Source: Cupriavidus necator N-1
GTDB lineage: Bacteria > Pseudomonadota > Gammaproteobacteria > Burkholderiales > Burkholderiaceae
Length of the DNA stretch: 64,000 nt
Direction of reading: 5' to 3'
Assembly: GCF_000219215.1 (NCBI RefSeq)
Contig: NC_015724.1
Coordinates: forward strand, 248,001 to 312,000
This document shows, piece after piece, positions 32,571 to 63,752 of the stretch. Position numbers and translations under genes: made by a program. Numbering within the stretch: the first letter of the stretch is position 1; each line of letters starts with the position of its first letter. Under the pieces are notes generated by a model. That model saw nothing but the letters and a program-made list of their open reading frames with translations, did no database searches and was not told where the DNA came from.

Positions 32571-34602
<2,032 letters not shown>

Positions 34603-34872: not shown

Positions 34873-34892
34873 GGTGCTCACGGACAATACCA

Positions 34893-37442: not shown

Positions 37443-37504
37443 GTGCCCAGTATCGTCCAGTCGCCTATCCTAGCCAATCGGCCCGTCCACAAAGGGGCGC
37501 TCCC

Positions 37505-39595: not shown

Positions 39596-39626
39596 TGGAT
39601 ACTCCACAGTGCAGATGCGCCAGAAT

Positions 39627-42335: not shown

Positions 42336-42536
42336 GTCGGCTCCTCGGGTTGCCATATTGCTGCAGTCTAGGCCGCTATCTCAATGCGATGTAGAAGGCA
42401 GCGTCTGACAGGTATGCTCGGAAGGCCTGCCGTGCAACCGGCGTGCTCACCCATTTTCAAGAAAGGGGGTGCCCCTGCAGGGTCAGGCCGGCGCCACTAG
42501 AATGGCTTCTTCAGCCACAACGCCACGGTGACAGCG

Positions 42537-43502: not shown

Positions 43503-43571
43503 GGAACGAAGGATCCCGATTCCATATCGTAGAATCTCGCACTTCCTGCACTGCGCAACTCAGGGTCATTG

Positions 43572-44018
43572 ATGCGTGTTGGCCGACCGATACCTGCTCC
43601 TCCTCAGCCCCTCTGCGATTACTGCGGCGGGAAGGCGGTTCTTGCCCGCGTGGGAGAAGAGGCATACCCCTATTTGGAGGACCACGGGCCCGTGTGGATC
43701 TGCTCCCCGTGCCAGGCGTGGATCGGCGTGCGTGCGCGTAGCAAGCAACACACCCCGCTTGGAAGGTTGGCCGACGCGGCATTACGCGAAAAGAAGAGCC
43801 GACTGCACGATGCCCTCGAGCCTTTGGTCACTGCGAAGATGCGGCGCGACGGTGTCAACGCCTTTGAGGCGCGGGGCAAGGCAATGAAGTGGCTGATTGC
43901 ATCGCTCCACATTCCAGTCGACAGCCCCAGCATCCATGCCCTTTCGCTTGATCAGTGCGAACAGGCAATCCAATTCATCGCCGAGTTCCAGGCCTCACGT
44001 GGGCGAGAGCCTTCCTGA
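43572..44018 (+). CDS. DUF3268-type zinc-finger protein
   Basis: 148 residues, start MRVGRPIPAPPQP at 43572. Two CxxC pairs (CDYCGGKA and CSPCQAW) form a zinc ribbon, followed by PLGRLADAALREKKSRLHDA, the conserved second half of DUF3268. A C-terminal helical part (NAFEARGKAMKWLIASLHI, LSLDQCEQAIQFIAEF) may bind nucleic acid. The family is common on prophages and plasmids. It ends 20 bases before the convergent dnaE2. Confidence 0.75.
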   Translation: MRVGRPIPAPPQPLCDYCGGKAVLARVGEEAYPYLEDHGPVWICSPCQAWIGVRARSKQHTPLGRLADAALREKKSRLHDALEPLVTAKMRRDGVNAFEARGKAMKWLIASLHIPVDSPSIHALSLDQCEQAIQFIAEFQASRGREPS

Positions 44019-44038
44019 TGAGGGCAACGAGAATACCG

Positions 44039-47000: not shown

Positions 47001-47188
47001 GCCTCAGTGTGCGCGCGAACGATGCCCGCCAGCGAGCACTCGTCGGTGATGGCGAGCGCGTGGTAGCCCAACTGGGCGGCACGTTCAGCGAGCTCTTCCG
47101 GTCGTGAGGCGCCGGCGAGGAAGGAGAAGTTGGAGCGGCAGTGCAGCTCCGCGTAGGCGGGCAGACCTGCCGCGGCGTTGATGTCCAT
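44039..47188 (-). CDS. dnaE2: Error-prone DNA polymerase III alpha subunit DnaE2 (ImuC)
   Basis: 1049 residues, start MDINAAAGLPAYAELHCRSN at 47188; the frame extends further but this Met follows the ImuB stop by 5 bases. PHP domain (1-about 230): ELHCRSNFSFLAGASRPEEL, ALAITDECSLAGIVRAH. Polymerase core (about 300-680): SNGILCQGRGSAANSAVCYC, with acidic catalytic residues in PPDIDVDFEHQRREEV. Then the helix-hairpin-helix and OB fold (GIVTVRQRPSTANGVVFLSL). It carries out damage-induced mutagenic synthesis with ImuA and ImuB. Third gene of the operon. Confidence 0.95.
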   Translation of the reverse strand: MDINAAAGLPAYAELHCRSNFSFLAGASRPEELAERAAQLGYHALAITDECSLAGIVRAHTEARNAGLRLVVGAWFRLQNADGSPALSFLALARNREGYGNLCELITLARMRAAKGFYVLTPRDLTAPEAPSEHLKGLPDCLIVFTPDYGVAAEKLEAQSAWVSATFAGRAWMGLSLLYKPMDDIHRGTVEAAAARHHLRIVATGNVTMHVRSRKPMHDVLTAIRVHRPVPECGYDLLPNAEQHLRSRLRLANIYPHRYLTESVHIANLCQFSLDELRYEYPEEVVPDGVTPSDYLRGEAYVGAQRRYPDGIPLAVQQQLEHELALIRDMAYEPYFLTVYDIVRFARSNGILCQGRGSAANSAVCYCLGITEVDPARGNLLFERFISKERAEPPDIDVDFEHQRREEVIQYLYRKYGRDRAALAAAVTTYRPRSALRDTGKALGVDPAIVDLVAKSHHWFDSKADLLKRFGESGLDPDAELSQRWAHMAVSLLGFPRHLSQHTGGFVLARGKLSRLVPIENAAMADRSVIQWDKDDLDTLGLLKVDVLALGMLSAIRRALDLVMQQRGEAFELQDIPAEDPKTYEMISRADTVGVFQIESRAQMSMLPRLKPRTFYDLVIEVAIVRPGPVQGGMVHPYLRRRQGLEPVSYPSPEMEQALSRTLGVPIFQEQVMQVAMLAAGFSAGEADQLRRAMAAWKRKGGLERYHERIVTGMLERGYDPEFAESIFRQIQGFGEYGFPESHAASFALLVYASAWLKCHEPAAFLCAMLNSQPMGFYTPSQLVQDAKRHGVTVLPVDVTVSGWDASLESHEGSVLAVRLGLSQLRGMRREAAERIETTRALRPFASVKDLARRASLDRHDANVLAAGNALIGLTGSRRQAMWQAAAAVPDKDLLRPADLDEPTPELPQPTEGEEIVSDYRSLGLTLNRHPLALLRHKLAALRFVPADVLATYATRQIARACGIVTVRQRPSTANGVVFLSLEDETGTVSVIVWPSVMEKYRREVLTASLLGVYGQWQCEGEVRHLIAQRFVDLSPMLGSLDTASRNFC

Positions 47189-47193
47189 GGCTT

Positions 47194-48657
47194 TCAGCCA
47201 AAGAGGCCATGCAGATACCACCGAGCCGCGTCGCTTTCTCGGCTGCCCATGCGTTCCTGAAAGATCCAATAGCAGGTGTGGTCCTTCGCCTCCGCAACGA
47301 AATAGTCGCGGGTCACCAGCTGGCCTCCCCACCAGCCCGACTCGATGCGCTCGGGCGGTGAGACGATACGCAGTGGTGAGCCGTAGAAGGGGCGGTGGTC
47401 GCGTTCAATCAGCGGCATCGGCTTGCTGAGCAGCCAAACGGGACGTGGCAGGCCTGAGGGCAACGTTGCGCTGGGCGGCTTGTCAGTTGCCGGCTGCCAG
47501 CTGTTGGCGACTTCTGGGCGGTAGTCGGCACGCAAGCACGGTTGGCGCACGTGGTCGGCGCCCAGACGCGCGACCAGCAACTCAAGCAGGCGTGCATGGT
47601 CCGCCGGCGTGCCGCCCGGTTCTGGAAACAATGAATCGCTGGGGGGCGCCACCGGCTCGGTCTCGATGGCAGACACCGCGACGGCGATCATCGGCGCCTC
47701 GACAGTCAGCCGCGTCAGACGCTCTTTGAGCAGGCGAACCAAATGCTCTTCATGCCAGTTGGGCTCGGCCAGCGCAATCTCAATCTTCGTTGGCGCGATG
47801 GCAGCGCGGCCGCGCTCGTGGCAAAGTTCGACCGCAAACCGTTTGATGGCCAGGTGCCGGGCGGTTAGCCAGCCGACCATCTGTACCAGCAAGCCGCGAA
47901 TGTAGGCAAGGGCGGACTCAGCGTTCTCGATCCTATCCGGAAGATCCACCGCAGCGTCAAACGATGGGGGAGCTTCGACCCATTCGAAGACTTCCGGTGC
48001 TTCCGCATGGGCGCGATCCAACGCCTCAAGGATGGCGGCGCCGCATCGGCGCTGCAGGCCTGCGCGCGGCAGCCGGCGCAGGTCTCCTAGCGTCCGACAG
48101 CCGAGTCCGTCCAGCCACTCATCAAACGGCCGCGCCGCCGGCAGGATCGCAACGGGCATGCCGACCAGCGCTCGCACCAATGTGGGCATACTTAGTGCCG
48201 TTCCGCCGCCAGAGCGCGCAAGCAGCCAAGCGCCTTCGGCAGTTGGTGCGCATCCCGCGACTGGATTAAACCCCATTGCCCTGACGGCCGCCAGCATCCG
48301 TTGCCGCAGCTTGCGGACGCCGCCGAATAGTCGCAGCGTGGTGCTGATGTCGACAAGCACCGCCGCCTCCTCGGAAGCAGTGACATTGGGCGAGAACTGC
48401 AGCATCGCCATCGTGACACGCTTGAGCGCCGCCAGTTCTGCGCAACCATCGCGGTCAAAGAGAATGGTCTGCGGTGCGATCGTCTGCACGCCTCCGCGGC
48501 GCATTGCCGGCTTCACGCCGGCCGCAATGGCCAGCGGCGACGCCATATGCACGCGCTCCCTGTCCAGGACAGCAACCGCCAGCTCAGTGGACCAGTTCGG
48601 CCGGAATACTTCGAGGGGCAGGGATGACAGGCGTAGGCAGATCCACAGGCGCAGCAT
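47194..48657 (-). CDS. imuB: ImuB, inactive Y-family polymerase-like mutasome hub
   Basis: 487 residues. It has the Y-family fold (VDISTTLRLFGGVRKLRQRM, GFNPVAGCAPTAEGAWLLAR, LDGLGCRTLGDLRRLPRAGL) but the catalytic acidic triad is not visible, as in other ImuB proteins. The C-terminus ends in the WYLHGLFG block found in the family. It links ImuA, DnaE2 and the beta clamp. Its start overlaps the ImuA gene by 74 bases, and dnaE2 follows 5 bases after its stop, indicating strict co-expression. Confidence 0.92.
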   Translation of the reverse strand: MLRLWICLRLSSLPLEVFRPNWSTELAVAVLDRERVHMASPLAIAAGVKPAMRRGGVQTIAPQTILFDRDGCAELAALKRVTMAMLQFSPNVTASEEAAVLVDISTTLRLFGGVRKLRQRMLAAVRAMGFNPVAGCAPTAEGAWLLARSGGGTALSMPTLVRALVGMPVAILPAARPFDEWLDGLGCRTLGDLRRLPRAGLQRRCGAAILEALDRAHAEAPEVFEWVEAPPSFDAAVDLPDRIENAESALAYIRGLLVQMVGWLTARHLAIKRFAVELCHERGRAAIAPTKIEIALAEPNWHEEHLVRLLKERLTRLTVEAPMIAVAVSAIETEPVAPPSDSLFPEPGGTPADHARLLELLVARLGADHVRQPCLRADYRPEVANSWQPATDKPPSATLPSGLPRPVWLLSKPMPLIERDHRPFYGSPLRIVSPPERIESGWWGGQLVTRDYFVAEAKDHTCYWIFQERMGSRESDAARWYLHGLFG

Positions 48658-51820: not shown

Positions 51821-51996
51821 CGCGCAACCTCATGCAGATTCCGGTGCAGGAACTCATTCTGCAGAGCAAGGGATCGGTGTCGGGCATAAGGTGGCGCTGT
51901 ACCGAGAACGGGAAATCTAGTGCGCACAAGACTTGGTAACCAGGCTACTTGACTTTGCCGTGGCACCCGTAGAGTGAACGCATCCCATTGCCGACG

Positions 51997-52773
51997 ATGC
52001 ACATGCTCACCTGCCACTCACAGCTTTCCCTCTTCTCAAGCCCGTTAGGCCGCGAGTCTGCCACGACTGGCCCCGCGCTGCTCCTGCTCGCCTGTTCCGG
52101 CACGAAGCTAGACCGGCCGGCGCCGGCCATGGATCTCTACCAGGGCGTCATGTACGAATCCTACCGGGCACACGTCCGGCCCGAGGCCAGCCCGAATGTA
52201 CTCATCCTGTCGGCACGTCACGGCTTCATCGATCCCCGCGACGTGATCGCCCCCTATGACCAGCGCATGACGACACAGCGCGCGGACGAGATTCTGGCCG
52301 ATCTGCCAGCGTTCGCGGCATCAGCAGACTGGCCCACCCAGGTAGGCAAGGTGCTGCTGGCTGGCGGCAAGGAGTACCGTCGCGTCATGCGTGCCGCGCT
52401 TGTTCGCCAGTACGGCGCCCTGCCCCTCACCGTTCATGAAACGACCGGTGGCATTGGCACGCAGCGGTCCCAGCTCGGCACCTTCCTCGATGGCTTGCCG
52501 TCGGTGTTCCGCGACCAGATCGGCCAACATGCCAACGGCACACCGATCTATCGCTCGTATGGCTGGATCGAGGCGGGCTCCATCGCCACCCTGCTCTACC
52601 GGGCCGCCCCCGCTCTTCCCGCGCGCCAGGCACGCGTGCTCTCGGTTTTCAATGGGCCGAGCGGCCCCACCGCCGACGTCGAAGTCGAAGAGTTTGTGCG
52701 CGGCCGAGCGAAAATCTGCCCGCGTTGGGTCAGCGTCGCGGATCTCCATCCTTCCACAGAGGAGTCGGCATGA
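51997..52773 (+). CDS. DUF6884 family protein
   Basis: About 258 residues; the start is uncertain (ATG 51997 or 52003, no clear ribosome site). The conserved core reads LLLACSGTKLDRPAPAMDLY, NVLILSARHGFIDPRDVIAP and YDQRMTTQRADEILADLPAF, typical of DUF6884, whose members occur on phages and plasmids and resemble YaaA-like folds. The C-terminal half (TTGGIGTQRSQLGTFLDGLP, RVLSVFNGPSGPTADVEVEE) is extra. Its stop overlaps the next ATG (ATGA). Function unknown. Confidence 0.65.
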   Translation: MHMLTCHSQLSLFSSPLGRESATTGPALLLLACSGTKLDRPAPAMDLYQGVMYESYRAHVRPEASPNVLILSARHGFIDPRDVIAPYDQRMTTQRADEILADLPAFAASADWPTQVGKVLLAGGKEYRRVMRAALVRQYGALPLTVHETTGGIGTQRSQLGTFLDGLPSVFRDQIGQHANGTPIYRSYGWIEAGSIATLLYRAAPALPARQARVLSVFNGPSGPTADVEVEEFVRGRAKICPRWVSVADLHPSTEESA

Positions 52774-53101
52774 GTGATTTCGACAGACAGCTGCATCGTG
52801 AGGCCATTGATCTGTGCCAAACGGGGCCGGCCACGCCCGACAAACTCGTAGCGCTGGCCCATGCAGGGCTGAAGGCGTGGGCGAAGGTCGGCAACCTCCA
52901 CTTCCCCCAGAAAAGCGGTATGCGCTGCTACAGGAAATCATGCGCTACTGCGCCTGGGAATGCTTGCTCGCGTGCTGCTTCGCGTCGGAGGACCGCTTGG
53001 AGCGGATCGCGGACATGCTGGATGCCTCCTACCCTCGCTACGCCTGCACCCGCGGCAGACTGGCCGCGCGCCGCAACCGCTATGGCCGACCGGGGTTCTG
53101 A
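52770..53101 (+). pseudogene. Hypothetical protein with a C-tract frameshift
   Basis: ATG 52770 (ATGA overlap) opens SDFDRQLHREAIDLCQTGPA and GLKAWAKVGNLHFP. At about 52905-52912 the sequence has five C where six would keep the frame, and the natural continuation KRYALLQEIMRYCAWECLLA, SEDRLERIADMLDASYPRYA, ending RNRYGRPGF, is in another frame to 53101. A homopolymer indel may be a sequencing error, a mutation or a slippage site. The intact protein would be about 110 residues and mostly helical. Confidence 0.6.
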
Positions 53102-53175
53102 CCCCCTCACCTGGTATCCGCCGCGGAGCGGCGGCAGGGGTGTGGGATGGGGCAAATTCAGTATATAACTGCGGC

Positions 53176-54135
53176 ATGACGCGAATGGATTCCCTCTGGC
53201 TTACTAACCCAACTCAGGCATACCGGGACTGGCAGGCTCGAGAAGCGGCCGGCGCTGACCGCCGTCCCTTCTCGGCGCGCTCGATCGTCCAGCATCAGGC
53301 GATGTTCGAGCATTTCCGCCGGCACCTGGTTGTGAGGGGCGCGACCATCGCCTCATTTGGCACCGCAGACGTCGACGCGTTCTGGCAGTCACCCGATGGC
53401 CGGAACTACTCTCAGGCCACCCGCACGCGGTATGTGATGCTGCTGGACCGGCTGTGCCGGCATCTGGTCTTCACCGGCGTACGGCTGGATAACCCTGCAG
53501 CCCCCCTGCTCTCCGCTGAGCGCTGGCCAGATCAGGAGCCAACGCCTCTGTTCCTCACCGCAGCTGAGGACGCGCGGTTGCAGGCCTACCTCCTATCGCC
53601 TCCGGACGATGTCGCCGGGCTACGCAGCCGCGCGATCGTCGCCGCATTCCTCGGTACGGGAATCACAGCGGGTGAGGCGCGTGCAGCGCGCTTGGCGGAT
53701 CTGTGGCCGGACGCGACCCCGCCCTACCTGGTCGTGCGCGCACACGGACCGCGCGACGCGCGCACGGTGCACCTAGCCAGCTTCGCTGTACCGATCCTGC
53801 GCGCCTGGTCCGCCCGGCGCGCAACCCTCCCCCTCGACGGCGATTTGCTGTTCACGCTTACCCCAGATGGTCGACCGATCACCGACATGAGCCTCGGCCG
53901 CATCGTGGCCACCGCACTCGCAGAAATCGGGTTCTCGGGTGCTGAGCCAAGCCCGCGTACGTTGCGCAATACCTTTTGCCGCCGCCAGCTTTTGGCCGGT
54001 CACTCTTGCGATGAGGTCAGCCAAATGTTGGGGCTGGTCAGCAATCGAACCTGTGATCGGATCGCCGCTACCCTGATGCCAGAGGCCAAGCGCTGCGAGA
54101 CGCTGCAGGCCGCCCCCGCCGAGGCCAACGAATAG
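53176..54135 (+). CDS. Tyrosine recombinase-like protein with degenerate active site
   Basis: 319 residues, start MTRMDSLWLTNPTQ at 53176. The N-terminal SAM-like core-binding domain (about 15-115: SARSIVQHQAMFEHFRRHLV, RTRYVMLLDRLCRHLVFTGV) is followed by a catalytic-type domain. The usual active-site boxes are altered: TGLRxSE reads TGITAGEARAARL (Arg lost), HxLRHTF reads SPRTLRNTF (first His lost, Arg kept), and the Tyr box LGHxxxxTTxxY reads LGLVSNRTCDRI. It is therefore unlikely to recombine like XerC/D and may be a DNA-binding or accessory factor. It is reproducibly placed next to HU here. Confidence 0.75.
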   Translation: MTRMDSLWLTNPTQAYRDWQAREAAGADRRPFSARSIVQHQAMFEHFRRHLVVRGATIASFGTADVDAFWQSPDGRNYSQATRTRYVMLLDRLCRHLVFTGVRLDNPAAPLLSAERWPDQEPTPLFLTAAEDARLQAYLLSPPDDVAGLRSRAIVAAFLGTGITAGEARAARLADLWPDATPPYLVVRAHGPRDARTVHLASFAVPILRAWSARRATLPLDGDLLFTLTPDGRPITDMSLGRIVATALAEIGFSGAEPSPRTLRNTFCRRQLLAGHSCDEVSQMLGLVSNRTCDRIAATLMPEAKRCETLQAAPAEANE

Positions 54136-54332
54136 GAAGATCATGGATATCACGATGGGCACCATGAAAGCGATTTATCGCCGCGCGATCGATCCCGAGC
54201 GGGCAGCCAGCGGCGCATTCAAAAATCGCGTCTCGCTCTTGCGCCCGCGGCGGTTTTTGCTATTCTTCGCCGGTGCGGCGCCACACCCTAATTCGCCGTC
54301 AGGCGCGCGCACTTTTCTAACCAGACACGACT

Positions 54333-54782
54333 ATGGCCACGAAAGCAAAACCCGTAGCAAAGACCGCAACGAAGACCGCTGCAAAGAAGGCTGCCCCCGC
54401 AAAGAAGGACACGCCCGTGACGAAGGCCGCTCCCGCCAAAAAAGCTGCTTCGGCAGCCCCGGTCGCCAAGCCGTTGAAGGACACGTTCAACAAGTCGAGC
54501 CTGCTGGCCCACCTGATCGCCCAGACTGAGTTGGACAAGAAGACCGTTCAGACGGTGCTGGCCCACCTGGAAAACACCATCGTCAGCGCCATTCACAAGA
54601 AGGGCGCCGGCGAATTCACGTTCCCGGGCCTGTTCAAGGTGTCGGCTATTCAAGTCCCGGCCACGAAGAAGCGCTTCGGCAAGAACCCGTTCACAGGCCA
54701 GGACCAGTGGTTTGCGGCGAAGCCGGCCAGCGTGAAGGTGAAGGTTCGCGCGATGAAGAAGCTGAAGGATGCCGCGATGTAA
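54333..54782 (+). CDS. HU-family DNA-binding protein with Lys/Ala-rich N-terminal tail
   Basis: 149 residues. The first 50 residues are AKPVAKTATKTAAKKAAPAK-type repeats, resembling H1. The HU domain (about 50-145) has FNKSSLLAHLIAQTELDKKT, GAGEFTFPGLFKV and a Lys-rich beta-arm region VPATKKRFGKNPFTGQDQ. HU bends and constrains DNA, and the tail adds non-specific contacts. A strong terminator follows. It is one of several nucleoid proteins in the window. Confidence 0.9.
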   Translation: MATKAKPVAKTATKTAAKKAAPAKKDTPVTKAAPAKKAASAAPVAKPLKDTFNKSSLLAHLIAQTELDKKTVQTVLAHLENTIVSAIHKKGAGEFTFPGLFKVSAIQVPATKKRFGKNPFTGQDQWFAAKPASVKVKVRAMKKLKDAAM

Positions 54783-54850: not shown

Positions 54851-56617
54851 CTAGAAGAGGGATTGCTGCGGCGTAGCAGCTTGCCGCCAAGCCAACTGAC
54901 TGGTCGCTGGCAGGTCCTCGAAGGGCACCGCCCGCGAACGCAATGCGCCCACATCGTACTCAAGGGTGAGCCCGAGGCGATCCTTGTAGGCGGTGCGCCG
55001 CGCGATCTCGTCGTGCTCGCCCCGCTGCGCATGGGAAAGCGTCAGGCACCCATACTGCGCGTACCAGCGGTAGCCCGCAGTAACTTGGCCGGGCGCCAGG
55101 CCTGCATCATGAACGTCCAGCAACCGATCCACCTCGAACTCGGAGATCAGCAGCGCCGACTCCGGATCGACTGAAAATTGCTGCGCGGTGGGCAATGCCC
55201 AAAGCTCGCGGCCTCCAGTTGTGACCTGCAGCTTTGGGCCGCAGGGGGAATCTGCGGTGAAGCTTTCAAGGTACGGATTGCGCAGGCCGGTCCAATCCGA
55301 AGGCGCAGCCGTGTCGTCCCATTCCGCTCCCACGTGCAAGAAGCGCGCCGTCGGGACCGCGGTCTGGGCGACCTGGGACACATCGGGAATGTCATACCTG
55401 ACACCCCGCTGGTGAATGTCCCGCCAGTCCGCCCATGCTGCAAAGGGTCTGCCGAGGCCATTCAGTGACTGCAGCGCGTCGACTGCGATCAGCATGTCTA
55501 GGGGCAGGAGTTCGAACTTCGGTCGTTCCCCTGCCTGCTCGGCCCGGCATTGCTCATCATAGTCCAGCTGCAACATGTACCGCACTAGTTCGCGAACCAT
55601 CCGTGGATGGTACGTGTCCGGCTGGATCTTGATGTAGCCGCCGCTGATGGTGCGGCCCACCCAATGACGTCGACTCCAATCAAAGCGGGTGTTTCGGATG
55701 AATCGGTTTAGCCTCTGCAGGCCGGCCGCATAGGCATAGCGTTCGTCGTACTCGACCATACTAGCGAGGCTCTTGTCCTCCGCCATCTGGCAAACATGGC
55801 AGCCTAGCCGCGCCCCGCATTTGCGGGGTCGACTCGAACCGGCGCCATCGAGAATGGCGTCAGCCACCACGGCGCACGATGTGCCGGCAGCATGCGCATA
55901 GATGCGCCGCATGTCCTCGAAGTCGGAGTAACACGGGCGCGCGGACCCCCCGTAGAGCGCGATACCTTCCCAGATATCGTCGTCGCTCCAGTCACAGACC
56001 GGACTAAGAACGAATTCACTATCCTGATTGCGCACAGGCACATTGGCCGAGTCGCCGCGCTGGCGCATCGAAGCGCTGCGACGTGCACTCTCTGCATAGC
56101 GAGTGCCAAGCAACGTAACCGGCTCCGCGCGGCCCTGCCCGGCCAACGACCGGAAGAGCTGTCGGCGGAAGGTGCGTTGTGGTGCAATTTTTAGGTCGGT
56201 CGAGCAATCGCCGTGCGTGCCCGGGAAGCTGGGCAACGCCCTGCCGGAGAAAATTTTCACCTGGAATGTCAAGGCCATCGACGGCTGCACGACGCGCGTA
56301 ATAACATCGAAGCCATGCTGCTTGCCGAACCTGCGCATCCGTACGAGCTCTTGGCGGTAATGATGCGCTACTTCAGGGGACTCCACCAGGGTGTCCCCTG
56401 TTGTCGCGACGACCAGTGGCTTGCCGCCCGCAGCATGGTAGAGCGCCGCGGCGTGCAGTGCCAGTGCGGCGACCATGCTGCTGTCCTTGCCGCCGCTATA
56501 AGCGAGGACCAACGGGTGGCCAGCCTCCAGGATGGCAAGGGCGGCGCGAATGGCCTGGTCTGCTTTGTCCTCGATTGGATCGAAGGCGCCCTGCGGAAAG
56601 AGAGAAATGGTTTGCAT
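54851..56617 (-). CDS. DndC-like PP-loop enzyme of the PAPS reductase superfamily
   Basis: 588 residues, start MQTISLFPQG at 56617 after AAGGGG. The PP-loop LAYSGGKDSSM (38-48) binds ATP. Further family blocks are GTRYAESARRSASM and LSPVCDWSDDDIWEGI. The Cys set includes C138 (GDCSTD), C248, and C267, C273, C276 in RKCGARLGCHVCQMAEDKS; this last block closely resembles the Fe-S site of DndC (CGxxRxGCWTC...DKS). DndC adenylates and sulfurates the DNA backbone in phosphorothioation. Here DndB, DndD, DndE and DndA are missing, and a long C-terminal half (about 300-588) has no obvious match. It is the last gene of the operon. Confidence 0.75.
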   Translation of the reverse strand: MQTISLFPQGAFDPIEDKADQAIRAALAILEAGHPLVLAYSGGKDSSMVAALALHAAALYHAAGGKPLVVATTGDTLVESPEVAHHYRQELVRMRRFGKQHGFDVITRVVQPSMALTFQVKIFSGRALPSFPGTHGDCSTDLKIAPQRTFRRQLFRSLAGQGRAEPVTLLGTRYAESARRSASMRQRGDSANVPVRNQDSEFVLSPVCDWSDDDIWEGIALYGGSARPCYSDFEDMRRIYAHAAGTSCAVVADAILDGAGSSRPRKCGARLGCHVCQMAEDKSLASMVEYDERYAYAAGLQRLNRFIRNTRFDWSRRHWVGRTISGGYIKIQPDTYHPRMVRELVRYMLQLDYDEQCRAEQAGERPKFELLPLDMLIAVDALQSLNGLGRPFAAWADWRDIHQRGVRYDIPDVSQVAQTAVPTARFLHVGAEWDDTAAPSDWTGLRNPYLESFTADSPCGPKLQVTTGGRELWALPTAQQFSVDPESALLISEFEVDRLLDVHDAGLAPGQVTAGYRWYAQYGCLTLSHAQRGEHDEIARRTAYKDRLGLTLEYDVGALRSRAVPFEDLPATSQLAWRQAATPQQSLF

Positions 56618-56642
56618 GTGTGACCCCTTCGGAGCGGGGCCA

Positions 56643-56658
56643 CAGCCCACAGGGGCTG
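56643..56658 (-). promoter_or_regulatory. 6-bp hairpin in the leader of the DndC-like gene
   Basis: CAGCCC and GGGCTG pair perfectly with a 4-base loop, 26 bases upstream of the start at 56617; a smaller CCCC/GGGG hairpin (56624-56639) follows and abuts the ribosome site. Confidence 0.5.
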
Positions 56659-56689
56659 GGCCCCTATGGGTTGTAGAGTGGTGGATGTG

Positions 56690-56887
56690 CTACAGATCGG
56701 CGAGATAGGCGATTGCACAGCCGCCTTCCGCGCCGCCCAGGCGTTTGCCCTCGCGGCAGGCGGAAAAATCAACCACCTTGCGTTCGATCTCGTTGGCCAA
56801 CTGGCGTAAGTGCTGCGCGGCTTCGGCCGGACCGGCAGTCCCCTGAAACGTGCGGCCACCAATATCAATGTCAACAATGAGGTTCAT
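56690..56887 (-). CDS. Small hypothetical protein, 65 aa
   Basis: MNLIVDIDIGGRTFQGTAGP starts at 56887 with GAGGA upstream. It has a predicted two-strand start, then helix (AAQHLRQLANEIERKVVDFS) and Cys residues (ACREGKRLGGAEGGCAIAYL). No family recognised. It is in line with the operon, 9 bases after the 91-aa gene. Confidence 0.6.
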   Translation of the reverse strand: MNLIVDIDIGGRTFQGTAGPAEAAQHLRQLANEIERKVVDFSACREGKRLGGAEGGCAIAYLADL

Positions 56888-56896
56888 AACCTGTCC

Positions 56897-57172
56897 TCAC
56901 GCGTCAACCGCTTTCGGCACCAGCTTGCGCAGGGCCTTCTGGTTGGTGTCGATGTAGGTTTGCATGCCGTCCAGCTCTACGGCCAGCTCATGGCCGAAGC
57001 ACGCAGCATCGGGCGAGACCTCAACCCGCTGGGCTGACTCGAATGCCGCCAGCACTTTGGTCCGGTCGACGTCGGCGCCCATCCAGCCGAATACTTTGAA
57101 AAACGTGTGCACCTTCTTACCGCGAGGCAGCAACTTGGCGGCGTGCTCCGCCGAAATCATGATCTTTGACAT
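56897..57172 (-). CDS. Small hypothetical protein, 91 aa
   Basis: MSKIMISAEHAAKLLPRGKK starts at 57172; no strong ribosome site is visible. It includes VHTFFKVFGWMGADVDRTKV and FGHELAVELDGMQTYIDTNQ. It resembles small plasmid/phage proteins but no function was recognised. Confidence 0.55.
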   Translation of the reverse strand: MSKIMISAEHAAKLLPRGKKVHTFFKVFGWMGADVDRTKVLAAFESAQRVEVSPDAACFGHELAVELDGMQTYIDTNQKALRKLVPKAVDA

Positions 57173-57324
57173 GGCTTGAAATGTGGAGGCTTGCGAGCGA
57201 GAGCCGGCAAGCGATTGGTAGGAAGAATGCTTATGCGTCTGTAAAGGTCGCCACTGCCCGCGCGCCTGATCGCGAGTCGAACCGCTCAGACTTGCCAGGC
57301 TCGTTCCGGTTTCGGTTCATGGCT

Positions 57325-57507
57325 TTACCTTGCGGCGACGATGTCCAGCACAAGATCGGCGATGTCCGAGACGCTTTCGCCGGTCGCATCCCATTTGGCC
57401 AACTCGGCCGCGTTCGTCTCGACGTATATGTAGGCTGCGGCGGGCACCTTGCGGAATTCGCGCAGCGCGTCGAGTTCGGCCTTCACAGCCATTGGAATAT
57501 GGTTCAT
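57325..57507 (-). CDS. Small hypothetical protein, 60 aa
   Basis: MNHIPMAVKAELDALREFRK starts at 57507. The remainder includes VPAAAYIYVETNAAELAKWD and SDIADLVLDIVAAR. Colinear with the operon. A GCCCC-TTGC-GGGGC hairpin lies about 40 bases upstream. Unrecognised. Confidence 0.5.
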   Translation of the reverse strand: MNHIPMAVKAELDALREFRKVPAAAYIYVETNAAELAKWDATGESVSDIADLVLDIVAAR

Positions 57508-57547
57508 GACTGAGCTCAGATTTGGTGGTCAGGAAAAGGAACGGCCA

Positions 57548-57561
57548 GCCCCTTGCGGGGC
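57548..57561 (-). promoter_or_regulatory. 5-bp GC hairpin upstream of the 60-aa gene
   Basis: GCCCC (57548-57552) and GGGGC (57557-57561) pair perfectly with a 4-base loop, between the SbcC-like stop and the 60-aa gene. It resembles the other intergenic hairpins of the operon. Confidence 0.5.
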
Positions 57562-57590
57562 CGACAGTGAATTGAAAAGGACGGCGATGA

Positions 57591-59918
57591 CTACGGCGCT
57601 ACAGCCAGCGAGGCCACGTCAATGGCGCCATCGGCTTCATCGACCAGGTCGGGGGTATGCGATATGAAAAACTCCCGCACATACCGGCCCTGACGCAGCA
57701 CCTCGCGCTTCATGCGCATGAACGCACGCTTGCGCTCTGGATCGAGCGGCCCGTCCGCCTCGTCGGTGAACAGCGTCTGAAACGACTGCCCGGAGTCCTG
57801 CGCCCGGTAGAGCGCAATCCCCCGCGTCAAGCACTCGTTGATCCAGATTTTCTGTCCCCCGGACATGACAGCGAAGTTCTTCGCGCTGTCACTCTCGGCG
57901 TCGTGCACCTCGATCTCGAACCCCTCGCGCTTGTCGCCGTTGGCCAGCGTCGTCTGTGTCTGGATCGCGATGGTGAATCGCGGCCCGTAGCAGGCGAGCA
58001 GCAGGTCATTGACGATGCGCGTGAGCGCCGGGCCGGCGTCATCGATGGACAACGCGATTACGCCATCGTTGCCCAACGCCTTCGCCAGCAGCTTCCATTG
58101 CGCGATTTCGTCGGAGAGCCGATCAGCCTTTCCCTGTACTGCAGGCAGACTGGACAGCACAGTCTCGACGCGCTCGCACTCGGTTGTCAGGCTGGTTTGC
58201 TGACGGATCAATGCTTCGATCCGCGCATCCAGCGCTACCACCGCCTCGCGGCTTTGGCGCAGACGAACGTCCATGGCGGCCAGCAGCCCGGTGACGTCTT
58301 CCGTCGCCAGCCCCGACAGCTCACGCTGCACGAGTGACAACTGCGAAGCGGCTTCGGCAAGATCCCGGTCGTGCCGAGCCGTGCTGGCAGCAGCCTCGCC
58401 CGTCAGGGCGGCAAGATCGCGCTCGGCTTGCGCCAGCCCTTCCTGCGCTACGTCCAGCATGGGCTTCTTTGCCGCAAGAGCAGTCAGCCGTTGCAATTCC
58501 TGCTGATCGCGGGCCAGGGCCGACTGCATGGCTGCCAGCGCGGCACGTTGGGCAGGCAGGAGGGCCACAGCTTCCGCCATTGGCTTCATCGCTTGCACCT
58601 TCGCCTGGTAGCTCGTCCGCAAGTCCTGCACAAGAATGACCTGTTCGGCCAACTTCCCCTTGGCGTCACGAGCTTGCGCGAGTAGCGGGCAGGTAGCGTG
58701 CATCGGATCGGCCCGGCATGGCACCGTTTCGATCACGTCGGCCTGGCCCTTGAGCGAGGTGGCAAACAGCGCCGCTGACTTGCCACGGGCTTCCAACCCC
58801 TGCAACTCGGTGGACAGTGCAGCGTGCTGCGTATGCTGCGCCTCCAGCCGGCCGACGGCCTGCTGTTGCGTGGCAAACTCGCCCTGCTTCTGGCCAATGG
58901 CCATCTGCAACACGTCACGCTGCTCGGCGGCCGCGAGAATCGCCGGCCCTTCGGCCAGCACCAGCTTGCGGCTGGCGATCAATTGCTCCAGCTCCCGGCG
59001 CCGCGTGGCGCTGCGGGCGGCCAGAGCACGCTGGTCAGCTTCCAACTGCCGCCGGCGCGCTCCCAGTTCCGTTTCCCGTTGCCTGAGTTCGCGCAGACGC
59101 GCCTCGGTCGCCGCGCTTGCACTTTGCTTGGCCGCCAGCGTCGCGCGCTCCTGGAGGAGCTTCGCGCCATCGGCAGTTTGCCCGTCCCGGTCACGCCGGG
59201 CCACAGCCAGGGCCGCGTCGGTCTGATCGATTTCCCGGCCCAACCGAGCGGCCCGCTCGCGCTGGGCGGACAAGCCTACCAATTCGCGCTGCAAAGCGTC
59301 CAGATGCCTCACCAACCCCTTCGACACCTCGCCAGCCTTTGCCGACAGGTCTCGCAGGTGGTCGATGCCAAGCAGCTCGGCCAGCAGCTTCTTGATCTCG
59401 CTGGCCTGGTAGCTGGCGATCGGGCGCCGGTTCTGCGCCGAAAACACGCTGGTGAAGAAGGCTTCGGGGGATCCCATCACCGCCTCGATGCAGCGGTTGT
59501 AGGTATCGGCCTTGCCATCCGACAGCGTGCCGTCGGGTAGCTGCAGCGGTACCCAGTCGCCGTTTGCACCCCTCTCGAACAGGTAATACTCGGCCTTACG
59601 GCTCTTGCCCGGGTTGCGGAACGCGAACGCCGATCGGTACTGCTTGCCGGCGTGCTCCCATTCCAGATCCTTCTCGCCACGGGTGCCACAGAGGTGATCC
59701 CAGTAGGAGAAGGCGTCCGCGGACATTTTCGAGGCGTGGCTGGGCATGATCGGATACGGATGGAGGTTATCCATCAGCGTCGTCTTGCCGGCACCATTGG
59801 GGCCGACCAGTGCGATCAGGCCGGGCGGCAGAGTAGTCAGGTCCAACGTCACGCTGTCACGGCGCATGCCATCGCGCACGCCATGAAAGCCCGCAAGGGT
59901 CAGCTTCAATGGGCGCAT
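57591..59918 (-). CDS. SbcC/Rad50-like SMC-type ATPase
   Basis: 775 residues. Walker A GPNGAGKTT (39-47) in LIALVGPNGAGKTTLMDNLH, an early EAFFTSVFSAQN block as in SbcC (Q-loop), two long coiled-coil arms (about 200-390 and 420-610), then signature AVMSGGQKIWINE, Walker B LFTDEADGPLDPERK and the switch region FFISHTPDL. Midway, where Rad50 has CxxC, this protein has CRADPMHATC (401-410), a Cys-x8-Cys that may be an alternative zinc hook. The start overlaps the preceding gene by 13 bases. It likely works with the phosphoesterase encoded one gene upstream, as SbcC with SbcD. Confidence 0.85.
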   Translation of the reverse strand: MRPLKLTLAGFHGVRDGMRRDSVTLDLTTLPPGLIALVGPNGAGKTTLMDNLHPYPIMPSHASKMSADAFSYWDHLCGTRGEKDLEWEHAGKQYRSAFAFRNPGKSRKAEYYLFERGANGDWVPLQLPDGTLSDGKADTYNRCIEAVMGSPEAFFTSVFSAQNRRPIASYQASEIKKLLAELLGIDHLRDLSAKAGEVSKGLVRHLDALQRELVGLSAQRERAARLGREIDQTDAALAVARRDRDGQTADGAKLLQERATLAAKQSASAATEARLRELRQRETELGARRRQLEADQRALAARSATRRRELEQLIASRKLVLAEGPAILAAAEQRDVLQMAIGQKQGEFATQQQAVGRLEAQHTQHAALSTELQGLEARGKSAALFATSLKGQADVIETVPCRADPMHATCPLLAQARDAKGKLAEQVILVQDLRTSYQAKVQAMKPMAEAVALLPAQRAALAAMQSALARDQQELQRLTALAAKKPMLDVAQEGLAQAERDLAALTGEAAASTARHDRDLAEAASQLSLVQRELSGLATEDVTGLLAAMDVRLRQSREAVVALDARIEALIRQQTSLTTECERVETVLSSLPAVQGKADRLSDEIAQWKLLAKALGNDGVIALSIDDAGPALTRIVNDLLLACYGPRFTIAIQTQTTLANGDKREGFEIEVHDAESDSAKNFAVMSGGQKIWINECLTRGIALYRAQDSGQSFQTLFTDEADGPLDPERKRAFMRMKREVLRQGRYVREFFISHTPDLVDEADGAIDVASLAVAP

Positions 59919-60424
59919 TCGGATACCTCCACGCCAGTCATCGAGGCCAGGTAGTCGCCGGGCAGTTCCATCACATCGCCGTCATAGGAGGGCATGTCAG
60001 GGACAATTGCCGGCTCGTCCCGCTCGGGCAGCCCGGCCAGCGCGCGCTCCAGGGAGCGCACGACGGCCGCGAACTGCTGGCGGGCGAGCGCGATCACGTC
60101 AGGCCATGCAGTGCAGCCTGACAGCGCCTTGAGTTCCAGCGCGCTCCACTGACTGGCATAGCCATGGGAGAACGACCAGAGCAGGTTCTGCATTTCCAGC
60201 GAGGGCGTGACCTCATACCAGTGCTGGTCATCGGCGGCGTGCACCGCGAGGACCAGCAGATGATCGCGCTGCGCAATCACCGCGCCGCGCCCAGTTCCGA
60301 ACGGCTGGAACTGGGTACTGCGGGTGAAGCCGTGCGCATCCGCCAGGCGCGCGGCCAGTGTGGGCGCGGCCAGTGCGGTTTGAAACGTATGGGCCCAGTC
60401 GGGGCCGGCAGGGTAAAGCATCAT
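59906..60424 (-). CDS. Hypothetical protein, 172 aa, between SbcD- and SbcC-like genes
   Basis: Start MMLYPAGPDWAHTFQ at 60424 after GGAG; that ribosome site lies in a 7-bp hairpin (60428-60450). The chain has GFTRSTQFQPFGTGRGAVIA, DQHWYEVTPSLEMQNLLWSF and LARQQFAAVVRSLERALAGL. No family was recognised. Its stop overlaps the ATPase start by 13 bases, so translation is coupled and it may be a small subunit of the complex. Confidence 0.65.
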   Translation of the reverse strand: MMLYPAGPDWAHTFQTALAAPTLAARLADAHGFTRSTQFQPFGTGRGAVIAQRDHLLVLAVHAADDQHWYEVTPSLEMQNLLWSFSHGYASQWSALELKALSGCTAWPDVIALARQQFAAVVRSLERALAGLPERDEPAIVPDMPSYDGDVMELPGDYLASMTGVEVSECAH

Positions 60425-60427
60425 GGT

Positions 60428-60450
60428 GCACTCCAAGGTGGACGGAGTGC
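60428..60450 (-). promoter_or_regulatory. Hairpin sequestering the ribosome site of the 172-aa gene
   Basis: GCACTCC (60428-60434) and GGAGTGC (60444-60450) are perfectly complementary. On the mRNA the second arm of the hairpin is the GGAGTGC that contains the ribosome site, 3 bases from the start at 60424. The structure would limit initiation until opened. Confidence 0.65.
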
Positions 60451-60584
60451 GTTCCCGGACGGGATGCACCCGTCAGGGGTCAAAGGGATGAAACAACTTT
60501 CGATGCGTCCGAGGGACGCGGGTGAAACCTTGTTTCGACAGCCCCACAGGGCTCTCGGAACATGGCTTTGGCCAGGTTCAAGGG

Positions 60585-62006
60585 TTAGGCGGCAGCTTCC
60601 GCAAACAGGTCGTCGGTGAGCCAGTCCATCGCCGGTGGCGGTGCGCTCGGCTTCACGATGACAGGCGCGGGGGCCTCGACTGGCGCCGGCGTTGCCTCTA
60701 TCACGAACTCCGGTGACATCGACGGCGCGGCGAGCGCCGCGACTTCTGAAGTACCCTCGCGATCCAGCTGCTGCAGTAGCTGGTCCGCGATGGCCTGCGG
60801 CTCGGCGTGCTCCAGCATCGAAAGACGATCCAACAACGGGTTGGTGTCGACGTGCGTCAACTCGCCCCATCGCGTGATCTTCTCCGACAAACTGGTGGCG
60901 CGGCTGATGCCCTCGGCACGGCTGCGCACGGCGGGCAGGACCCGGCCTTCCAGCTTCACCTCGGCCGCCTTGGCAAACAAAACGCCGATGGCGTCTCGAT
61001 CGACGGCCTGACGGTGTTCTTCGTCGACCACCCAGCGGATGCGAACGAACTTGTCGGTCGCACTCGCGGCGACACGGGCCAGCTCGTCCATGTCAGGCGG
61101 GGAGTTGAAGTCGATGCACAGCGTCTCGCGGGCGGGCGTCACAACCGGGGTTGTTTCAGCCAGTCCCGGAGCGACGCGCCATTGCAGGTAGGTCTTGTCG
61201 CCAATCTCGCCGTAGTGGAAGCGTCCGATCGAGCCCGGATACGCCACCAACCGACCCTCGCGGTCCCATTGCTGGGCGCGGTGGATATGGCCGAGCATGA
61301 AGCCGTCGCAATGCGCGTCGAACAGCGCCCCAATGGTGAATTCGTGATCGAATCCGGCCATCGGCACGCCATGCTCGGTCTGGCAGCCGTTGACGGTGCC
61401 ATGCGAAATACCCATGGTGCGGATGCCCCGTGCGCGAAACGATCGATTCACGGTGCCAGCCGCGTGCAGGTAGGCGGACAGATGGTCGCCGACTGCGGTT
61501 GCAGCCTCCGTTGCCCCTACTGCCGCCGCGAGCATCGCCTTGTTGACGGTGGGCACGCAAGTGAAAATCACCTCCGGCGATTCGTCAGCCAGCAACGCCT
61601 CGATCTCGACTGGCGTGAACAGCGCGCCCGATGATGCGATGAACACCCCGTCGCGCAGCGCCACCTGGTGGATGCGGTCAGCGATGTAGACCGGAAAGCG
61701 ACTGCCAACGAGGCGAAACAGATCCAGTGTGCCGGGCGGCTCGTGACTGAACGTGCCTTGCAGCATCACCACGGGCATGTGCCCGGAAAGCTGGCGGATA
61801 CGCTCGGCCAGCACACGCAGCGCCGGGGTATGGGCGTCCAGGCGATGATCGGTCGAGTCGCCCGAAACGATGCCTACCCGGCTGCCTACGGCGATCGCGT
61901 GCTCGACGGCAAAGCCGAAACAGCGATCCGCTTCAGCCAGATGGCCGGTCGAATAGTGCAAATCAGAAAAGTGAGCCAGCAGCAGGCTCTCAGCTGCCTT
62001 GAGCAT
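60585..62006 (-). CDS. SbcD-like metallophosphoesterase (calcineurin-like nuclease)
   Basis: 473 residues, start MLKAAESLLLAHFSDLHYST at 62006 after GGAG. Motif I LAHFSDLHYS, motif II VGIVSGDSTDHR, motif IV-V MGISHGTVNG and FMLGHIHRAQQWD are present. The usual GNHD motif reads VVMLQGTFSHEPPG, so the Asn is changed, which may alter activity. A helical and Pro/Ala-rich C-terminal part (about 300-473) ends in MDWLTDDLFAEAAA. It should be the nuclease partner of the SbcC-like ATPase. Confidence 0.82.
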   Translation of the reverse strand: MLKAAESLLLAHFSDLHYSTGHLAEADRCFGFAVEHAIAVGSRVGIVSGDSTDHRLDAHTPALRVLAERIRQLSGHMPVVMLQGTFSHEPPGTLDLFRLVGSRFPVYIADRIHQVALRDGVFIASSGALFTPVEIEALLADESPEVIFTCVPTVNKAMLAAAVGATEAATAVGDHLSAYLHAAGTVNRSFRARGIRTMGISHGTVNGCQTEHGVPMAGFDHEFTIGALFDAHCDGFMLGHIHRAQQWDREGRLVAYPGSIGRFHYGEIGDKTYLQWRVAPGLAETTPVVTPARETLCIDFNSPPDMDELARVAASATDKFVRIRWVVDEEHRQAVDRDAIGVLFAKAAEVKLEGRVLPAVRSRAEGISRATSLSEKITRWGELTHVDTNPLLDRLSMLEHAEPQAIADQLLQQLDREGTSEVAALAAPSMSPEFVIEATPAPVEAPAPVIVKPSAPPPAMDWLTDDLFAEAAA

Positions 62007-62106
62007 GATGTGAATCTCCAATGGGATGTGCGCCAGAAGCGGCGCGGGGAAGGGATGGTTGCGGCCCGGAGCGGCCACAGGTGAAAGGAATTGAGGAAAC
62101 GCAAAC

Positions 62107-62133
62107 GTGAACGGCGCATTGCACGCCGTTCAC
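62107..62133 (-). terminator. Perfect 10-bp intergenic hairpin upstream of the SbcD-like gene
   Basis: GTGAACGGCG (62107-62116) and CGCCGTTCAC (62124-62133) pair over their full length with a 7-base loop. On the minus strand it is followed by GTTTGCGTTTCC, only partly U-rich, so it may be a partial terminator or processing site within the operon. A smaller GGCC/GGCC hairpin lies at 62063-62076. Confidence 0.6.
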
Positions 62134-62145
62134 CTTGTTACGCCG

Positions 62146-63477
62146 TTAGACAGAAGCCGACGCCTCGCGCACGCGGGCTCGTACCTGCTCCCGGAAGGCC
62201 ATCGGATTGGCCAGCGCGATCTGCATCTCGCCGATCATCCTGTCGACGTCCTTGGGCCGCTTGGTCCAGCCTTGGCCGTATTCGATTCGCGCAAAGGCCA
62301 GCAGGTCCATCTTGTCCTGCCCCTTCGCCATGTCAAGACGAGCGGCCAGATCAGCTAGCACGCTTTCACGGTCGTCGGGATCAACTTCGGAGGACATCGG
62401 TCCAGCATGCGACACCGGCGCAACGATCGGTGCCGGTTCAGGTGCCAACGTCATCGCGGAGATGTCGGCTACCGGCGACGCCGGCGGCGCAGCGGTTGCG
62501 GACATTGCCGAGTTTGTGCCTTCGAGCAAGGTGACCGCGTGGCTTGCAGCGTCCAGCGCCGGGGCCATCTGGTCAGCGCCATCCAGCAGCGCGCCCATGT
62601 CGATTTCCGCGTCCAGCATTGTGAGCATCTGTTCCTGCCGCATGGGCAGGCCATCGTCACCGATGCGGGTAATCTCGACCGCCTTCTTCGAGAGCCAGAA
62701 CTGCAGGCCGGCCATGCGGCCGCCCCGCGCCAACGCCACCGTCTGCATTGCGGCATACGCCTTCTGCAACACGTAGATGGAATTGGTCGGCAACTCGATC
62801 AGGCCGAGGCCCTTGATTTCGGGAACGCAAAAGAGGAAGTTCGCGCTCAGGTTGCACTTGCGTTCCTGGTACTGCGGACACTGGTGCGGATCGCAGACGC
62901 CGTCGGCAATGGCGTCGTCCTGGCGCAGGATGATGGTACGTCCGCCGAAGAGGCGCTTGGCGCGCTGAGCGCGCTGATCAACTTCCGGCGCAGCATACAT
63001 CTTGCAATACCGCTTTCCGTCGGTGCCATACTCGGAGAAATACTGCAGACCACGTGTGCCCCATACCTTCAACTGGTTTGGCATGTTGGCCAGCCAGTCG
63101 TCGAAGGCGAAGATGACCGGGAAGCGCCAGAGCTTCAGGCCATCGCCGCGATCCTCGCCGTACTTCTGGAGGATTTCGTCGGCAGTGGCCGGATTGGTGA
63201 AGTCCGAAGACCGGCAGGTGAACCAAGCCGTGTTCTTCGGCACCAGGGCGTTGCGCAGTTTGGTTTTGCGTTCGATCTCGTCGCCGATAGCCTCGAACGA
63301 GTCGCCGCGGGCGAGACCGGCGTCGTGGATCTTGACCGCCTGCTCGTTCTCCTTGGCCTTCTTCGTGAGCACCTTGATGCCCGGTCGAATCTTGCCAATG
63401 ATGGGTGGCCGCGCGGGCCGTTCCTCGATCAGGCTGCGAGGCTGGTTGAAGTCGGTGTAGCCAATAGCTCGTTGCAT
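62146..63477 (-). CDS. Cys-cluster protein resembling phage gp3-type recombination directionality factors
   Basis: 443 residues, start MQRAIGYTDFNQPRSLIEER at 63477 after TAGGAG. The central block CDPHQCPQYQERKC with FLFCVPEIKGLGLIELPTNS (about 195-240) resembles, from memory, the CP...C...LP...G....TTS pattern of phiC31 gp3-like proteins often annotated as hydrolase or metal-binding protein. The four Cys and a His suggest a metal site. The C-terminus has a Pro/Ala-rich linker and a helical end. The N-terminal half includes RPPIIGKIRPGIKVLTKKAK and AWFTCRSSDFTNPATADEI. The exact role is unknown; a recombination or DNA-binding role is inferred. Confidence 0.6.
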   Translation of the reverse strand: MQRAIGYTDFNQPRSLIEERPARPPIIGKIRPGIKVLTKKAKENEQAVKIHDAGLARGDSFEAIGDEIERKTKLRNALVPKNTAWFTCRSSDFTNPATADEILQKYGEDRGDGLKLWRFPVIFAFDDWLANMPNQLKVWGTRGLQYFSEYGTDGKRYCKMYAAPEVDQRAQRAKRLFGGRTIILRQDDAIADGVCDPHQCPQYQERKCNLSANFLFCVPEIKGLGLIELPTNSIYVLQKAYAAMQTVALARGGRMAGLQFWLSKKAVEITRIGDDGLPMRQEQMLTMLDAEIDMGALLDGADQMAPALDAASHAVTLLEGTNSAMSATAAPPASPVADISAMTLAPEPAPIVAPVSHAGPMSSEVDPDDRESVLADLAARLDMAKGQDKMDLLAFARIEYGQGWTKRPKDVDRMIGEMQIALANPMAFREQVRARVREASASV

Positions 63478-63752
63478 GGTGCGTTGCTCCTACGTTCAAG
63501 AAGGTATTGAACGACGGCGACGCGGATGGACGCAGCATGCTCCCGAAGGCGCAGGGCTATGTCGGCCCCGCGCTGGGTCGTTACGTCGGAAAGGAACGCC
63601 GCTCGGGCGGGTTCCGCTAGACCGGCCACATGGGCCGCTTCACACAAATTTAGCCACGCATTCGGCAGCCCGACGTAGTCGGGCCGGCGGCGGGCCAGCG
63701 TAGCCGCAATCGCGGCACGAATCTCGGAGTTCTGATCGATAGCAGACAGCAT
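63429..63752 (-). CDS. Hypothetical protein, 107 aa, first gene of the operon
   Basis: Start MLSAIDQNSEIRAAIAATLA at 63752 after AGGAG; it overlaps the next gene by 49 bases. The protein is helical (RRRPDYVGLPNAWLNLCEAA, LREHAASIRVAVVQYLLER). No family recognised. It begins 30 bases after an intrinsic terminator, so its expression is probably controlled by read-through. Confidence 0.65.
   Translation of the reverse strand: MLSAIDQNSEIRAAIAATLARRRPDYVGLPNAWLNLCEAAHVAGLAEPARAAFLSDVTTQRGADIALRLREHAASIRVAVVQYLLERRSNAPCNELLATPTSTSLAA

Follow-up and report, generated by a model that had tools for sequence, protein, structure and literature searches.

Does the minus-strand operon on contig NC_015724.1, a large plasmid of the soil bacterium Cupriavidus necator N-1, in which a DndC-like gene lies downstream of an SbcCD-like gene pair, encode one system that marks and cuts DNA, or two functions that travel together? 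The stretch analysed, called the window, measures 64 kb and covers positions 248001-312000 of the contig (C2) in a four-contig genome of 8.48 Mb. An initial annotation had described nine open reading frames (ORFs) on the minus strand, among them a DndC-like protein, an SMC-type ATPase, a phosphoesterase and a Cys-cluster protein, and this content was confirmed at window positions 54851-63752. We lean towards reading the operon as a core recombination or replication module accompanied by a frequent, optional DNA-modification gene. Slightly firmer is the part concerning the core, a mobile Mre11-Rad50-like module with a partner from the family of the phiC31 recombination directionality factor (RDF), probably serving DNA-end processing in plasmid or phage replication. 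The assignment of the DndC-like protein as a DNA-modifying enzyme is more tentative. The ORFs of the window were scanned against Pfam, PHROGs and PADLOC, and later against NCBIfam. The four main ORFs (sizes in amino acids, aa) are:

62146..63477, minus strand: p2, Gp3-like protein of the phiC31-RDF family (PF18897), 443 aa
60585..62078, minus strand: p3, Mre11/SbcD-like metallophosphoesterase, 497 aa as called
57591..59918, minus strand: p5, Rad50/SbcC-like ATPase, 775 aa
54851..56650, minus strand: p9, DndC-like PP-loop, Fe-S-type (iron-sulfur) protein, 599 aa as called

A recurrent Gp3-SbcD-SbcC core

Among 72,556 plasmid records, 54 contain a relative of p2 and 51 a relative of p3. Both were present in 49 records, with the Gp3-like gene at most 3 kb upstream of SbcD on the same strand in 48. 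A genome scan with p3 gave 154 loci, of which the best 80 were taken, with no named Burkholderia, Paraburkholderia or Caballeronia included. A Gp3-like gene was located upstream of SbcD in 75 of these 80 loci, and all five misses begin less than 500 bases from a contig edge; SbcC followed downstream in 74, and of the six misses only one (L081) has about 6 kb past SbcD. Scanning viral contigs with the Gp3-like alignment yielded seven carriers, all with the complete Gp3-SbcD-SbcC set. In the 13 viral contigs found via SbcD, these seven included, a Gp3-like gene was always present and SbcC was found in 11. Replication initiators (L103, L104), helicases (L106, L107) and a DnaC-like loader with a CI-like repressor (L103) are found close to the viral core loci, so the set is present in temperate phages as well as in plasmids.

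The nearest relatives of the operon proteins come from Cupriavidus. Plasmid pMOL28 and a C. oxalaticus plasmid carry the identical order of Gp3-like, SbcD, 187-aa protein, SbcC, small ORFs and DndC-like. The order exceeds chance, being shared by both plasmids, with its Gp3-SbcD-SbcC part found repeatedly in phages, genomes and plasmids. Fragments of the core also occur on another contig of the N-1 genome: SbcD-like fragments lie at C4:866895-867810 and C4:1102706-1103652, the second site with a Gp3-like fragment as well.

The DndC-like gene as a proposed optional companion

At least 23 of the 51 SbcD plasmid records have a DndC-like gene that follows SbcD on its strand at a distance of no more than 10 kb, a lower bound as the DndC-like matches were taken from the best 40 and the best 60 of about 2545 records. 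The linked records comprise at least six of 18 from Cupriavidus (three of the six being copies of pMOL28) and at least 17 of 33 others, and the distance from SbcD is 3.7 to 5.3 kb in 21 of the 23. At least four further SbcD records have a DndC-like gene elsewhere on the same plasmid. Twelve of the 51 records were examined by their surroundings (L004, L010-L015 and L144-L148). Among the seven Burkholderia-type plasmid loci, the DndC-like gene was present in five (L012, L013, L144, L146 and L147, in the last at the border of the stretch read), reduced to a remnant in L145 and absent from L148.

Outside the plasmid records the linkage is looser. With more than 6.5 kb available downstream, DndC-like sequence was found in six of 18 Cupriavidus-type genome loci, three of them remnants, and in none of 33 other genome loci; the 13 viral core contigs had none within the fetched flank. 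In a sample of 100 genomes of the family, SbcD was present in ten, with DndC-like adjacent in three (the N-1 genome itself, G002 and, as a remnant, G089). G058 has it about 68 kb from SbcD, G075 on a different contig, and the remaining five have no match. The core, for its part, occurs on no more than 51 of the 2545 plasmids matched by DndC-like and was missing at 10 of 14 plasmid DndC-like loci. Remnants of the gene persist beside the core in H210, L018, L027, L035, G089 and L145, which indicates that it can be lost.

In a tree of the family, DndC-like proteins of Burkholderia-type loci group with phage proteins and those of Cupriavidus with other plasmid proteins. Forcing seven linked DndC-like proteins together lowered the log-likelihood by 153 (approximately unbiased (AU) test, p 0.00015), this group of seven having been named after an earlier tree was seen. 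Since the linked proteins belong to two separate branches, the phylogeny indicates that a DndC-like gene entered the slot, or was exchanged there, at least twice. The slot downstream of SbcC itself varies: it may hold a DndC-like gene, complete or as a remnant, or neither of these, and phospholipase-D-like genes or small ORFs also occur there. Across 15 DndC-like loci no neighbouring family was shared outside the SbcCD-bearing ones, save for one short ORF match between two loci.

The initial annotation had proposed checking whether these genes co-occur, and named their being unlinked elsewhere as a refutation of its proposal. The linkage proved real and recurrent, and the genes are nevertheless unlinked in many genomes, viral contigs and plasmids. 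The association of core and DndC-like gene reads as a useful but optional companionship and not as one obligate system.

A NADAR gene was observed between the Gp3-like and SbcD genes in four of the seven Burkholderia-type plasmid loci (L012, L013, L144 and L146), all of which contain DndC-like. That the two come and go as a pair was rejected after a profile check, with DndC-like present and NADAR missing in L147 and only a DndC-like remnant in L145.

Proteins of the core

With 128.3 bits against PF18897 (Gp3-like, recombination directionality factor-like; gathering cut-off 23.6), p2 belongs to a known Pfam family, to which phiC31 gp3 scores 64 bits. First described as a Cys-cluster protein, p2 has three invariant cysteines (C195, C200, C208). 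The AlphaFold2 (AF2) model has a core at about residues 24-293 and a helical C-terminal domain at 367-442, and its best match in the PDB is 9teh_I, the phiC31 RDF; the predicted fold of p2 is that of phiC31 gp3. The two differ in length (443 aa against 244 aa for gp3), in the extra helical domain, found in p2 only, and in their partners, an SbcCD-like pair for p2 and a serine integrase for gp3. A direct comparison of the Gp3-like alignment with phiC31 gp3 was not significant, PDB sequences searched with the Gp3-family profile gave nothing relevant, and tblastn with p2 gave zero matches in the annotated phage collection at E 0.01. At E 1e-5 the profiles of this study detected no Gp3-, SbcC-, SbcD- or DndC-type ORF in either stretch of the phiC31 record or in Bxb1 28000-46000.

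Two loci have a Gp3-like gene and no SbcD or SbcC in the stretch read: in Janthinobacterium (L016) it is next to an AcaB-type regulator, and on a Nitrospirota plasmid (L017) beside genes for a CHC2 zinc finger protein and a UvrD helicase.

In p3 the phosphoesterase motifs D39xH41, G73D74, GTxSHE (108-113), H226 and GHIH (263-266) are at least 90% conserved over 88 rows, and 22 diverse rows show no variation at D39, H41, G73, D74, S111, H112, H226 and G263-H266. Pfam gave a weak Metallophos_2 match only; the SbcD-like profile reaches T. maritima SbcD (2.5e-9). The best PHROG of p5 is the SbcC-like phrog_77 (2.1e-29), and the SbcC-like profile reaches archaeal Rad50 (6e-12). Its Walker A motif (39-47), Q162, signature SGG (686-688) and Walker B D719E720 were recognised, with N41, G42, K45, T47, S686, G687, G688, D719, E720, C401 and C410 invariant in 16 rows. 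Canonical Rad50 has a CxxC hook and canonical SbcD or Mre11 a GNHD motif III. Instead of that hook, p5 and its phage relatives have an invariant C-x8-C (401-410), and in p3 the usual Asn of motif III is replaced.

Like SbcCD, Mre11-Rad50 and T4 gp46/gp47, p3 and p5 are a metallophosphoesterase and a Rad50-type ATPase encoded side by side, their catalytic motifs conserved, in agreement with the SbcCD-like pair first proposed. They differ in the C-x8-C hook, the GTxSHE motif III, the standing Gp3-like partner and their NCBIfam scores, which are below cut-off (SbcD 12.4 against 77.65, SbcC 44.5 against 478.5). By these sequence criteria the pair is classed as SbcCD-like, not as SbcCD proper. The metallophosphoesterase RDF of Bxb1, gp47, resembles p3 at the level of the superfamily only (PF00149, E 0.014, below cut-off); two comparisons of it with the SbcD-like family gave nothing significant. 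The PADLOC matches of p5 to mad3, LmuB and similar proteins are partial. An Achromobacter locus has an extra SMC-like protein of 814 aa (weak PF13476) between SbcD and SbcC (L076:11390-13831).

The DndC-like protein

The match of p9 to PADLOC DndC (9.1e-34, residues 44-305) upheld its DndC-like identity. A PP-loop SGGKDS at 52-57 and four cysteines (C149, C278, C284, C287) align in spacing with two annotated DndC proteins. The cysteine block CGARLGCHVCQMAEDKS is spaced CGxxxGCxxC, one residue shorter than the CGxxxxGCxxC first noted, and C149 is the fourth invariant cysteine. p9 nevertheless differs from DndC of the DNA phosphorothioation systems: it scores 123.2 bits against the DndC equivalog TIGR03183 (cut-off 290.4), and alignments reveal a conserved C-terminal half of its own (R328, G332, R333, D345, D363, E366 and D391 among others). 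A 31-row tree set the two annotated DndC proteins and five shorter phage proteins apart from the 24 members of plasmid or phage origin with a support of 100/100; a P. aeruginosa row, dropped for its long branch, fell inside the DndC-like family in another tree. On these sequences, p9 is assigned to a DndC-like family separate from annotated DndC.

Membership of a canonical Dnd system was rejected on the low equivalog score and the missing partner genes, as the initial annotation had anticipated. Among the nine operon ORFs there was no match to DndB (PADLOC, Pfam) and no cysteine desulfurase (Pfam), host enzymes not being included in that search. For DndD the genome gave a single match of 42.5 bits (cut-off 245.85), p5 being Rad50-like; for DndE it gave none, and the control genomes were silent too. 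PADLOC recognised no complete known defence system in the nine ORFs.

In databases the p9 family is named CysH or 3'-phosphoadenosine 5'-phosphosulfate (PAPS) reductase. The PP-loop fold is shared and some relatives pass PF01507, whereas p9 itself does not (17.6 bits, cut-off 22.5) and has the DndC-type cysteine block. An assignment to assimilatory sulfate reduction, which would have refuted the system first proposed, was thus not obtained for p9, and the PAPS reductase annotation of the plasmid gene is probably wrong. Passages of one report describe a CysH-like PP-loop protein of plasmid-borne type IV-B CRISPR systems, compare it with DndC and state that its catalytic cysteines are missing (PMC8175902); p9 retains all four. 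No Cas or Csf match was found among the nine ORFs (Pfam, PADLOC).

The family is widely distributed. A DndC-like tblastn match was found in 2545 of 72,556 plasmid records, an upper bound for the p9 family as some true DndC proteins are inside, e.g. Rhizobium NXC14. Coverage was at least 80% in 1992, and 2035 were typed conjugative. An IncC, an IncHI2 and a P. aeruginosa plasmid are among the carriers. In the plasmid stretches read, no DndB, DndD or DndE was annotated beside the gene.

Eight of 13 viral DndC-like loci (L116-L123) contain a full-length family member, and by their identities represent at most three lineages. A methylase gene was present within 3 kb in six of the eight. The corresponding figures were two of 14 for plasmid DndC-like loci and three of 13 for viral SbcD loci, which make an imperfect control; the queries covered Dam-, Dcm- and MT-A70-type methylases only. 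Start-to-stop overlapping junctions join Dam, Dcm and DndC-like in L116, Dam, DndC-like and Dcm in L118, and Dcm, DndC-like and a replication gene in L122. Because the viral genes adjoin or overlap methylase genes, this arrangement favours DNA as the likely substrate.

Other features of the operon and its surroundings

The five small ORFs, all initially taken as unknown proteins, are:

63429..63752, minus strand: p1, DUF7696 protein (PF24751), 107 aa, 46 bits in Pfam (cut-off 27)
59906..60469, minus strand: p4, 187 aa, no family in Pfam, PHROGs, PADLOC or NCBIfam
57325..57507, minus strand: p6, 60-aa ORF, no family match in Pfam, PHROGs or PADLOC
56897..57172, minus strand: p7, 91 aa, no family match, relatives in several Cupriavidus-type loci
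56690..56887, minus strand: p8, weakly ZapA-like, 65 aa, PF05164 at 15.8 bits (below cut-off 23.8)

That description holds for p4, p6 and p7. Relatives of p1, p4, p7 and p8 are present among 97 loci compared. Those of p1 lie 5' of the Gp3-like gene on pMOL28 and in most Cupriavidus-type loci, and those of p4 between SbcD and SbcC on Cupriavidus- and Burkholderia-type plasmids (most Cupriavidus-type loci, L012 and L013). The p8 relative on the C. oxalaticus plasmid is annotated as ZapA. As p6 had no relative in the 97 loci, its status as a gene is doubtful and it may be an ORF only.

The ORFs had been said to overlap throughout; as called, they do so at two of eight junctions (63429-63477, 49 nucleotides; 59906-59918, 13 nucleotides), the other six being gaps of 9 to 152 nucleotides. 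Two starts are probably over-called: most plasmid matches of the SbcD-like protein start at residue 23-34, placing its likely start near 62006, and many DndC-like relatives start at residue 12, placing that start near 56617.

Beyond the operon, window 51988-54782 contains a DUF6884 gene, a tyrosine recombinase and an HU-type gene, which also occur at the matching site in C. oxalaticus; recombinase and HU are found on pHG1 too. Further off are adjoining Ku and LigD genes, a non-homologous end-joining pair (38702-42149), adjoining DNA polymerase III alpha-type and Y-family (impB/mucB) genes resembling an error-prone polymerase pair (44039-48657), and a gene for a sigma-70 protein of 583 aa that has regions 1.1 to 3 (32851-34602).

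Alternative explanations

The alternative that survives best, though we hold it to be unlikely, is that sulfur of the DNA backbone is not what the DndC-like protein acts on, and that it is an N-type ATP pyrophosphatase, working like TtuA or LarE by adenylating or thiolating a small molecule or an RNA. The nearest solved folds of the p9 model are TtuA, LarE and sulfonucleotide or flavin adenine dinucleotide (FAD)-synthase enzymes (matches spanning residues 18-301), and both the sub-cut-off equivalog score and the lack of annotated dnd neighbours on plasmids fit this explanation. That fold, however, is common to PP-loop enzymes, the CGxRxGCxxC block equals that of DndC in spacing, and phage operons pair the DndC-like gene with DNA methylases.

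A single integrated system, in which the DndC-like protein would put a sulfur mark on self DNA and Gp3-SbcCD would read or cut DNA lacking the mark, against phages or competing plasmids, is less probable still. It is consistent with the two parts standing together in at least 23 of the 51 SbcD plasmid records and with two DndC-like branches occupying one slot; DndD of genuine Dnd systems is likewise described, in passages of PMC10853773, as an ABC ATPase with coiled coils. Weighing against it are the core loci without DndC-like (all 33 of the other genome loci and all 13 viral contigs), the small share of DndC-like plasmids that carry the core, the remnants, and the single weak DndD match in the genome beside an unmatched DndE with its silent control. 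An obligate sulfur-guided cutting system, as first suggested, is therefore possible but not favoured, the core often occurring without DndC-like and DndC-like mostly without the core; plasmid recombination, suggested at the same time, is a good reading of the core.

About equally improbable is that the genes are chance neighbours, the site downstream of SbcC near a tyrosine recombinase acting as an accessory site and the DndC-like gene being one cargo gene of many. The variable content of the slot agrees with this, but the recurrence in at least 23 of 51 records on one strand, the narrow spacing in 21 of 23 and the two branches of one family do not.

Despite the family and fold shared with phiC31 gp3, it is very improbable that p2 is an excision switch for a recombinase of the plasmid, as the large serine integrase domain PF07508 was matched in this genome only on contig C3 and not on C2, the neighbouring recombinase is of the tyrosine type, and the phiC31 and Bxb1 RDFs are reported, in passages of PMC5311408, to act in phage replication as well.

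Proposed function and implications

From gene content, family membership, linkage counts, the two branches in the slot and the match to the gp3 fold, we infer the following biochemical steps for the favoured reading of a core module with an optional modification gene. The Rad50-like ATPase and the Mre11-like phosphoesterase would bind DNA ends, hairpins or blocked forks in the element and trim or cut them. In T4, gp32 coats the single strand beside gp46/47; by analogy the Gp3-like protein, as standing partner, may coat the resulting single strand. Phages bear the core near replication-initiation genes, and plasmids would use it for replication, repair or establishment. The DndC-like protein would be an ATP-using Fe-S-type PP-loop enzyme that modifies the DNA of the element as a protective mark, possibly thiolating it with sulfur that a cysteine desulfurase of the host supplies. 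Open-licence literature yielded no work on the plasmid DndC-like gene or the Gp3-SbcCD module, which does not exclude its existence.

More speculatively, and with less confidence than the reading of the operon itself, PF18897 proteins could be the single-stranded DNA-binding or loading partner in a mobile Mre11-Rad50 module for replication, and integrase switches of the phiC31 type would then have been recruited from that module. For Bxb1, whose switch is a metallophosphoesterase, the second subunit of a complex of this kind may be the source, and the burkholderial plasmid module would have taken up a DndC-like DNA-modifying enzyme from two branches.

The integrase switch of phiC31, a genome engineering tool, would thereby be given a testable origin as a subunit of a phage and plasmid DNA-end-processing complex. 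The "PAPS reductase" gene of IncC, IncHI2 and many other conjugative plasmids belongs to a DndC-like family with its own conserved C-terminal half, a family that is widespread on plasmids and phages.

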